The notes beneath the pieces are model-generated. The model saw nothing but the letters and a program-made list of their open reading frames with translations, ran no database searches and was not told the origin of the DNA. The translations under genes were made by a program, and so were the position numbers. From NCBI GenBank assembly GCA_032881465.1, contig CP126168.1, forward strand, positions 682,001 through 746,000: 64,000 nt of DNA. The letters are read 5' to 3'. Source of the stretch: Parvibaculaceae bacterium PLY_AMNH_Bact1 (GTDB taxonomy: Bacteria; Pseudomonadota; Alphaproteobacteria; Parvibaculales; Parvibaculaceae). Below are positions 14,697 to 17,466 of this stretch, piece by piece (position 1 is the stretch's first letter; each line of letters starts with the position of its first letter).

Positions 14697-15338
14697 ATGT
14701 CAGCTGTTTCCGTTACTTCCAAAAGAACATCCGTGCGCAAGACCCCGACCCAAGCTCGCGCAAAAGAGCGGTTTGAACGGATACTGGATGCCGCCCGTAA
14801 CCTCATAGAGGAAAGCGGCAGTGATCATTTGAAGATGAGTGATGTTGCGGCCCGGGCAGGGGTGCCCATCGGCTCTGTCTATCAATACTTTCCGGACAAG
14901 TCGGCAATCATTATCACTCTTGCAGAGAGGATCATGGAGCTGGTGCATGACGGCCTTGCTCAGGCAATGGGTGAGGTGGGCTCTCTCGAAGATGGGGAAG
15001 AGGCACTGAGATCGACTCTGATGGCCTACTACCAACTCTTTCTTGCAGAACCTGTTGCCCGCGATATCTGGTTTGGCATCCAGGCGGACAAAACGCTCAA
15101 TGTGTTGGATATCGAAGATAGCCGGGCCAATGGTCAGATTGTTTTTCGGACGCTCAAAAAGTTCACGCCAAGGAAAGACTGGAAGCGCCTTGAAACAGCC
15201 AGCTTTCTGATCATGCAACTGACGGGTATGGCTGTGCGTCTAGCAATTTCCGTCGACAGAAAAGAGGGTGACCGGATCATGGCCGTCTATCAGGACATGA
15301 TCCGGCGTGAGCTCATTGCAGTGACTGCCGAGAGTTAG
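14697..15338 (+). CDS. TetR/AcrR-family transcriptional regulator
   Basis: A 213-residue protein with a TetR N-terminal helix-turn-helix (about residues 18-65; ARAKERFERILDAARNLIEESG and VAARAGVPIGSVYQYFPDKSAII) and a helical ligand-binding domain. It is divergent from the FMO-SDR operon and likely represses it through the palindrome at 14645-14657. Its last 4 bases overlap the convergent glyA end. Confidence 0.92.
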   Translation: MSAVSVTSKRTSVRKTPTQARAKERFERILDAARNLIEESGSDHLKMSDVAARAGVPIGSVYQYFPDKSAIIITLAERIMELVHDGLAQAMGEVGSLEDGEEALRSTLMAYYQLFLAEPVARDIWFGIQADKTLNVLDIEDSRANGQIVFRTLKKFTPRKDWKRLETASFLIMQLTGMAVRLAISVDRKEGDRIMAVYQDMIRRELIAVTAES

Positions 15339-16609
15339 AGCCCCGGTACTGGAAAACGTGTTGTAAGTGCGGTGACTTCGGCTGCAAGGCCCGCCAGATG
15401 TGTTTCATCGTGCGGAGACCTGAGCGCGGATGCGATCAACCGTCCAATGATCGCCATATCGGCTTCTCCCATGCCCCGCGCTGTGGGCGCCGGAGTGCCG
15501 AGTCGCAGACCCGATGGACGTATAGGCGGGTTGGGGTCGTCCGGGATCATTTGTTTATTGGTGGTGAGCTCAATTCTGTCGAGCGTCTCCTGGGCTTGCC
15601 TGCCGTCAATTCCGAAGCTTTCCACGGTATCGATCACCAATAAGTGGTTTTCAGTGCCACCGGTAATGAGCCGAACCTGATGATCTCGCAGGGACTGGGC
15701 GAGCGCCTGCGCATTGGTGAGCATTGCCCGCGCGTAGGTTCTGAATTCGTTCGCGGCAGCGAGCCTAAGTGTGAGCGCAGTGGCGGCCACCTGATTCATG
15801 TGTGGTCCGCCTTGAAGACCTGGAAAGACAGAGGCATCAATCGCTTTGCTGTGTTTCGCCTTGCACAGAATGAGGCCCCCGCGAGGCCCCCGAAGCGACT
15901 TATGTGTCGTCGTGGTCATGACGTCGAAGCCATGGTCCAGGGGATTCTGCAACGCGTCTCCAGCGATCAGGCCACCAACATGGGAAACGTCGGCCATCGT
16001 GAGAGCACCAACCTTGTCGGCAATCACCTGGAACCGAGCATAGTTCACTTCCCGTGGATAGGAAGAATGTCCGCAAACAATGAGTTGTGGTTTTTCCTGA
16101 AGCGCGGTTTCTTCGAGTGCGTCATAGTCGATGTCTCCCTGCGCACCGACGGTCTTGTAGCGCACGAAATTGAAGAGACGCCCCATATGACTGACCGGTG
16201 CACCATGGGTGAGATGTCCTCCGTGGCTCAAATCCATCGCCAGGATCGTGTCACCAGGTACAAGCAGGCCAAGATAGACCGCCTGGTTCATGGGCGATCC
16301 GGACAAAGGCTGTACATTAGCATGCTCAGCCCGGAAGAGGCTGCAGGCCCGTTCCTGCGCGAGTTGCTCGATGGTGTCAGTATTGGGTTGGCCGCCGTAA
16401 TAGCGACGTCCCGGATAGCCTTCTGAATACTTGTTGGTGAAGGCACTGCCGAGAAGGGGAAGCACTTCCGGGAAGCAATAGTTTTCCGACGGGATAAGTT
16501 CCAGGCCCGTGCGCTGTCGGTCTTCTTCAGCGACAAGGGCGGCAAAAATGTCTGGGTCTTTCGCCGCGAGGTCATCGCGGAGTCGATTGAGGTTTATGTC
16601 CAAATGCAT
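15335..16609 (-). CDS. glyA: Serine hydroxymethyltransferase (divergent GlyA)
   Basis: A 424-residue PLP enzyme that interconverts serine and glycine with transfer of a one-carbon unit to tetrahydrofolate. K237 in TTTTHKSLRGPRGG is the PLP lysine; MDLSHGGHLTHG and MADVSHVGGLIAG hold substrate and PLP contacts. The region HSSYPREVNYARFQVIADKVGAL differs from the usual ASAYPRxIDFxRFxxIAD of standard GlyA, so this may be a second paralogue. A putative ZTP riboswitch precedes it, linking expression to purine/folate status. The upstream gene on this strand encodes an HD-domain protein. Confidence 0.9.
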   Translation of the reverse strand: MHLDINLNRLRDDLAAKDPDIFAALVAEEDRQRTGLELIPSENYCFPEVLPLLGSAFTNKYSEGYPGRRYYGGQPNTDTIEQLAQERACSLFRAEHANVQPLSGSPMNQAVYLGLLVPGDTILAMDLSHGGHLTHGAPVSHMGRLFNFVRYKTVGAQGDIDYDALEETALQEKPQLIVCGHSSYPREVNYARFQVIADKVGALTMADVSHVGGLIAGDALQNPLDHGFDVMTTTTHKSLRGPRGGLILCKAKHSKAIDASVFPGLQGGPHMNQVAATALTLRLAAANEFRTYARAMLTNAQALAQSLRDHQVRLITGGTENHLLVIDTVESFGIDGRQAQETLDRIELTTNKQMIPDDPNPPIRPSGLRLGTPAPTARGMGEADMAIIGRLIASALRSPHDETHLAGLAAEVTALTTRFPVPGL

Positions 16610-16622
16610 AACGGTCTCTCCG

Positions 16623-16693
16623 TTTCAAAGCCAAAATGTCAAACGCCCGGCCAGCTCTTCTAAAAAAGGCTGCCCAGGCGAACGGCTTTGAAA
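16623..16693 (-). promoter_or_regulatory. Inverted repeat linking riboswitch and glyA ribosome-binding region
   Basis: TTTCAAAGCC (read on the minus strand at 16693-16684) is exactly complementary to GGCTTTGAAA (16632-16623). The upstream arm sits just before domain 2 of the putative ZTP riboswitch. The downstream arm lies about 14-23 bases before the glyA ATG (16609), next to its GGAGAG. A 10-bp pairing here could be the alternative structure that couples ligand binding to expression. Confidence 0.5.
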
Positions 16694-16791
16694 TCGGCTT
16701 CCGCGCTCCCTCGTGGTTGTTCACTCTGAAAATCAGGGCGGTTTCCCACATCCCCCAAAACAAACGGGAGACTTTCGCCAGTCACGCGGAA
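16662..16791 (-). promoter_or_regulatory. ZTP/ZMP (pfl) riboswitch candidate in the glyA leader
   Basis: On the minus strand, domain 1 opens with TTCCGCG-TGACTGGCG (16791-16776). It closes with GGGAG-CGCGGAA (16710-16699), giving a perfect 7-bp P1 around the conserved TGACTGGCG and GGGAG elements; GTGGGAAACC lies between. Domain 2 follows as CCGTTCGCCTGGGCAGCC (16685-16668), close to the consensus CCGCCTGGGC, and runs into six Ts. These are the hallmarks of the pfl/ZTP class (Rfam family pfl), which senses the purine intermediate ZMP/ZTP and is known to precede one-carbon genes such as glyA. It was recognised by eye, not scored by a covariance model. Confidence 0.82.
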
Positions 16792-16863
16792 TATATGGAC
16801 CAGTCGGGTCAGGGCGAGTGAACCAAAGGATGGACGTTAGGTCAAAGAAAATCTCGATTTGCA

Positions 16864-17466
16864 CTAGTCAGAAAAGGGTGCCGTGTCGATCAGGGTGTCA
16901 AGATTGAGATCGCGCATGACAGTGGCGATGCCAGAAGTGGGGTTGCGGGCGGCCTCCGCACCCAGCAGCTTTCGCAAGTGCGTCTTGCAGCCGGTTCGCG
17001 GATGTTCCTCCAGGATTCGTTCCAGCGCACGTGCCGGAATGTCGTCAAGCCGCATGCCAATAACATCAGCTATCGCACCCATGTGAAGGAGCGCGACCTC
17101 GGACCTCTCATCGTCTGCTGAGGCCAAATTGGTGTGAAGGGAGATTGCCGTGCGGACAGACAAGGCGAGGCCGGTGGCAGCACCCCGTTTCAGCAGAAAC
17201 TCTTCTGCTGCTTTTCCACCACGCACTTCAAATTCATCCTCGCCGACAATAGTATGGTCCAAACCCAGATCATGAAACAGAGCACCGACATAGAGGGCTT
17301 CTTTGTCGGCACGGCGTCCGATCTTCTGACCAATGAGTTCGGCAAAGAGAAAGGTCCGGTGGCAATGATGGATCATGGGCGGCGCTGACACCTCTTTCAG
17401 AAAGCAGGTAGCGGCGTTCGCAATGTCACTATCCGGGGCGTTTGGGAGCTGAGTGTTGATGGTCAT
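16864..17466 (-). CDS. HD-domain protein (cyanamide hydratase-like phosphohydrolase fold)
   Basis: A 200-residue protein with an HD metal site: H in MIHHCHRTFLFAELIG and HD in VGALFHDLGLDHT. The arrangement resembles HD proteins annotated as metal-dependent phosphohydrolases or cyanamide hydratase-like proteins. Substrate unknown. It lies upstream of the glyA leader on the same strand, 254 bases before the glyA start, and may be transcribed separately because the riboswitch fills the gap. Confidence 0.78.
   Translation of the reverse strand: MTINTQLPNAPDSDIANAATCFLKEVSAPPMIHHCHRTFLFAELIGQKIGRRADKEALYVGALFHDLGLDHTIVGEDEFEVRGGKAAEEFLLKRGAATGLALSVRTAISLHTNLASADDERSEVALLHMGAIADVIGMRLDDIPARALERILEEHPRTGCKTHLRKLLGAEAARNPTSGIATVMRDLNLDTLIDTAPFSD

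Follow-up and report, generated by a model that had tools for sequence, protein, structure and literature searches.

The leader of the second SHMT gene (glyA) of this genome, judged by its sequence, carries a genuine but ordinary ZTP riboswitch. We propose, with a probability of roughly 70%, that it acts as an ON switch for this gene through a two-layer platform, in which terminator-type invasion of the aptamer is combined with partial masking of the ribosome-binding site. The aptamer and the 10-bp repeat that underlies the masking are both beyond chance. Feature coordinates (Table 1) are positions of the window, that is, the whole 64,000-nt stretch of DNA analysed.

Table 1. Elements of the glyA leader and its surroundings, in order of transcription
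Feature	Window position	Strand	Details
Likely promoter	16817..16845	-	TTGACC (16845-16840), 17 nt, TTCACT (16822-16817); inferred start ~16810
ZMP-ZTP riboswitch aptamer (RF01750)	16665..16795	-	cmscan 51.0 bits, cut-off 39; single genome match
P1 5' strand UUCCGCG	16785..16791	-	7 bp with 16699-16705
GGCG, pseudoknot 5' half	16776..16779	-	pairs with CGCC 16677-16680; family consensus; invariant in alignment
Extra J1/2 hairpin (GUCUCCCG...UGGGGGAU)	16750..16772	-	in this genus and one sister genus
P2 with inserted apical hairpin	16713..16749	-	16749-16746/16716-16713; insert holds GAGTG arm
P1 3' strand CGCGGAA	16699..16705	-	partner of 16785-16791
Outer helix 5' arm (UUUCAAAGCC)	16684..16693	-	past bulged A continues as CCG 16697-16695
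Domain 2 / P3	16672..16686	-	GCC 16686-16684 with GGC 16674-16672; model alignment
CGCC, pseudoknot 3' half	16677..16680	-	also first bases of terminator-like stem
Terminator-like hairpin	16644..16680	-	CGCCUGG 16680-16674 / CCGGGCG 16650-16644, plus CAGC/GCUG 16672-16669/16655-16652; overlaps pseudoknot and P3
Degraded U-tract UUUGACAUUUU	16633..16643	-	after hairpin; U score 2.74
Outer helix 3' arm (GGCUUUGAAA)	16623..16632	-	continues as CGG 16622-16620 into Shine-Dalgarno
Shine-Dalgarno GGAG	16618..16621	-	GG paired in predicted off-state
Second SHMT gene (glyA), regulated gene	15335..16609	-	424 aa; PF00464 E 1e-134; NF000586 499 bits, cut-off 335

The match to RF01750 (ZMP-ZTP, pfl motif) lies on the minus strand, exceeds the gathering cut-off, and has an E-value of 2.3e-5 for the 64-kb window. 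It covers the model at full length (positions 1-86), and no second copy occurs in the genome (3.74 Mb, one contig). An earlier, sequence-only reading of this DNA had assigned the leader to the ZTP/pfl class and proposed a covariance-model search as the check; the full-length match bears the assignment out. The elements named in that reading (a 7-bp P1, UGACUGGCG, GGGAG, GCCGUUCGCCUGGGC and a T run) were all found in place. P1 comes with the conserved GACUGGCG and GGGAG internal loop, and domain 2 has both P3 and the GGCG/CGCC pseudoknot, whose bases are invariant. A purine or one-carbon gene downstream is typical of the family, and here an SHMT gene directly follows. Over nine relatives P1 is 100% paired, with two-sided changes at four of its seven pairs. 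The ligand of the class was reportedly identified by Kim et al. in 2015. Other RNA families, such as a tandem THF riboswitch, were searched for within the leader, and none appeared up to E 1.

The score is lower than those of the sister-genus copies because of lineage-specific inserts. One is the extra J1/2 hairpin, which in this sequence folds better than 300 of 300 shuffles; of the three pairs scored in it, one shows a two-sided change (C-G to U-A). The other, the P2 extension, in which GAGTG faces a CACUC-type partner, is present in six of the seven genomes of the genus. This genus thus differs from known RF01750 members in both additions. A long insert is not in itself unique, since spans of up to 186 nt occur among matches elsewhere in the phylum. 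The reduced score might be taken to mean that the match is a degraded, non-functional relic, or else a sensor of another ligand. But the core bases are intact, P1 covaries, and the element is kept before glyA in all seven congeners, which makes such an explanation very hard to credit.

The sequence-only reading had also suggested an alternative fold, between GAGTGAAC (16726-16719) and GGTTCACTC (16824-16816). Both sequences are present, but the fold is not conserved: the pairing is 8 bp here and only 4-7 bp in five congeners, and the match looks accidental. GAGTG, moreover, has its local partner in the P2 extension, and GGTTCACTC overlaps the likely -10 box (TTCACT), so it is probably not transcribed. 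The TTG of this likely promoter stands at an approximately fixed distance in the aligned leaders of relatives. Just upstream of P1, a GACC...GGTC inverted repeat, GACCCGACTGGTC (16798-16810), is conserved in the genus. This repeat, close to the inferred transcription start, might serve as an operator or form a 5' hairpin.

The downstream frame is intact and full length, and its matches to PF00464 and NF000586 agree with the earlier identification of the regulated gene as glyA. That identification overlooked that the gene is the second SHMT gene of the genome. The two copies share 47% identity and the other has no riboswitch, so the switch governs one copy of two. Presumably, the riboswitch-governed copy is condition-dependent. 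The one-carbon/purine logic put forward in the sequence-only reading, with SHMT expression raised when purine synthesis stalls, appears right, ligand binding itself being expected from the family. The riboswitch would mark the copy of the SHMT pair that is linked to one-carbon stress. Relatives of the SHMT protein at 61-65% identity come from other alphaproteobacterial bins and one Desulfovibrionaceae bin, the nearest named records being Rhodobiaceae bins and 'Alpha proteobacterium Mf 1.05b.01'. At 11 of 16 loci scanned outside the genus, this riboswitch likewise lies shortly ahead of the SHMT gene. Upstream of the leader, and on the same strand, lies a gene for an HD-domain protein (16864-17466, minus) with weak likeness to the cyanamide hydratase family.

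RF01750 matches over the cut-off were found in 7/7 genomes of the genus and 36/40 of the family, versus 22/387 sampled alphaproteobacterial genomes; the element is therefore patchy in the class and nearly fixed in the family. Each congener copy stands before this glyA. Many sister-genus genomes have two copies, and the loci read lay before glyA or before a folD-like gene. Since glyA was among the five genes first linked to the pfl/ZTP RNA class (PMC2864571), the system is an ordinary one, and a glyA-associated ZTP riboswitch is also known from Herbaspirillum (PMC7011215). The aptamer core, gene association and predicted ON logic are those of other glyA-associated RF01750 members. What we describe is a new instance of an already described ZTP-glyA association, which confirms that this little-studied group of alphaproteobacteria has a textbook regulatory RNA; its nested platform is moderately interesting.

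At the center of this platform is a terminator-like hairpin of about -24 kcal/mol. The sequence-only reading had recognized the surrounding repeat helix as an alternative pairing and missed the hairpin nested within it. The hairpin 3' arm, GCUGGCCGGGCG, lies outside the aptamer model, yet it is near-invariant across the glyA leaders of the family. It pairs with CGCCUGGGCAGC, which comprises the pseudoknot and P3 bases, and the hairpin is the main competitor of the aptamer. The stem varies too little to show covariation. In the geometry of invasion the leader matches the Clostridium beijerinckii pfl switch (PMC10085676). There and in the Fusobacterium ulcerans ZTP switch (PMC10085676, PMC7484762), as predicted here, P3 and the pseudoknot give way to an invading strand, and the resulting hairpin overlaps the aptamer. 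Both of those switches have a strong terminator, whereas this leader combines a weak U-tract with an added helix into the Shine-Dalgarno. The Pectobacterium carotovorum ZTP reporter, a lacZ translational fusion induced by trimethoprim (PMC10117056), resembles the present system in aptamer class.

Most sister-genus leaders carry UUUUUGUUUU or similar directly after the hairpin and have U scores of 4.6-5.2, compared with 2.74 here. Such a tract together with GCUGGCCGGGCG has, to judge from its sequence, the design of a terminator. Three sister-genus leaders (L018, L028 and L024) have a U-tract as weak as the one here, or nearly so, and the close congeners also carry the weak UUUGACAUUUU. A consensus terminator scan reported no terminator, the hairpin being strong but its tract weak.

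Around this hairpin, the 10-bp repeat noted in the sequence-only reading (TTTCAAAGCC, 16693-16684, with GGCTTTGAAA, 16632-16623) forms an outer helix; an equally long helix arose in 2 of 500 shuffles. Continued past a bulged A, it can grow to 13 bp, pairing the GG of GGAG. That the helix joins the approach to domain 2 with the ribosome-binding-site region, as had been suggested, is supported by compensatory changes in relatives. Among nine leaders, five of the ten pairs show two-sided changes; CAAAG/CUUUG, for example, becomes CUAAG/CUUAG in genome G003 and UCGAG/CUCGA in a sister genus. The covariation score of these leaders, some of them sister-genus members selected for an alignable helix, was reached by 0/500 shuffles and by no slid version. 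Since the set was partly chosen for the helix, 17 leaders were tested without that choice. Arms with their own partners averaged -15.0 kcal/mol versus -11.5 when swapped, and 0/20000 permutations, which ignore relatedness of the leaders, did as well. Pairing was weak in L010, L014, L024 and L037; for L024 and L037, both sister-genus leaders, 78/500 and 113/500 shuffles were as good. In L032 and L094 the register is shifted, with GGUCUUU pairing GGAGACC and again covering the Shine-Dalgarno.

These observations bear on a purely transcriptional switch, in which the nested hairpin terminates when ligand is absent and the outer helix does no more than reinforce the base of that hairpin. A terminator overlapping the aptamer 3' end is usual in the class (PMC2864571), and the stability of the hairpin and the strong tracts of most sister-genus leaders point the same way. 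However, the tract is weak in this genome and its close congeners. The outer helix, moreover, lies beyond the U-tract and so can form only once termination has been decided, yet compensatory changes preserve it. We therefore consider exclusive control by termination unlikely.

Folding the leader from the inferred start at 16810, with pseudoknot and ligand terms excluded from all energies, gave a minimum-energy structure of -87.0 kcal/mol, compared with -65.0 kcal/mol when P3 was forced and the pseudoknot bases were held single; keeping the linker single as well cost a further 2.2 kcal/mol. The minimum-energy structure contains P1, the J1/2 hairpin, the extended P2 and the nested off-state hairpin. 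In growing transcripts, the aptamer helices P1 and P2 fold first, the hairpin follows once its 3' arm is made, and the outer helix comes last; P1 and P2 are retained as the hairpin forms. Forcing P3 leaves the linker able to pair close to the start site, and P3 itself removes only three pairs of the outer helix. With so small a clash and a difference of 2.2 kcal/mol, ligand would not release the start site cleanly. The models thus predict a clear clash between aptamer and terminator-like hairpin but only a partial one between aptamer and Shine-Dalgarno masking. An AACGG-AGAGA-CCGUU hairpin forms around the Shine-Dalgarno (16611-16625) in the fold with a single-stranded linker; it is not retained in congeners with AACGGAGAAACAG.

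A purely translational switch, in which the sole effect of hairpin and outer helix is to hide the ribosome-binding site, would suit the weak U-tract here and the conserved anti-Shine-Dalgarno helix that reaches the GG of GGAG, and the folD switches of sister genera look translational. It is nonetheless improbable, because the outer helix and P3 are not fully exclusive and because GCUGGCCGGGCG with the sister-genus U-tract resembles a terminator.

We therefore favor control at both layers. Shortage of 10-formyl-THF would cause ZMP/ZTP to accumulate and bind the aptamer, as expected from the family, holding P3 and the pseudoknot in place. Without ligand, GCUGGCCGGGCG would invade both and form the terminator-like hairpin. 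The surrounding helix would then zip 16697-16684 with 16632-16620 and mask the Shine-Dalgarno GG, leaving transcripts that escape termination poorly translated as well. Given the degraded U-tract, control here probably relies more on the translational layer than it does in sister genera. It is conceivable, and we suggest it only tentatively, that within the family the balance of this nested platform has shifted from termination in sister genera, with their strong U-tract, to translation control in this genus. If the two-layer reading is true, closely related leaders would allow a switch to be traced from termination to translation control; if the balance has indeed shifted, they would provide a natural series in which a riboswitch passes from one mode of action to another.

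Other genes accompany the riboswitch among relatives. In sister genera, a folD-like gene is preceded by it at loci L016, L019, L020, L027, L029-L031, L033, L034 and L036. In these folD leaders, P3 GGGCACC can pair with GGUGCC adjoining the start codon, giving a short, apparently translational platform. DJ-1/PfpI-like genes lie just downstream in several alphaproteobacteria (L035, L098, L101, L107 and L113), the L035 product matching PF01965 (E 1.8e-22) and the other four being assigned by sequence resemblance. The literature searched yielded no paper joining ZTP, riboswitch and PfpI. Genes resembling LysE/RhtB exporters in sequence follow ZTP riboswitches in L103, L109 and L110.
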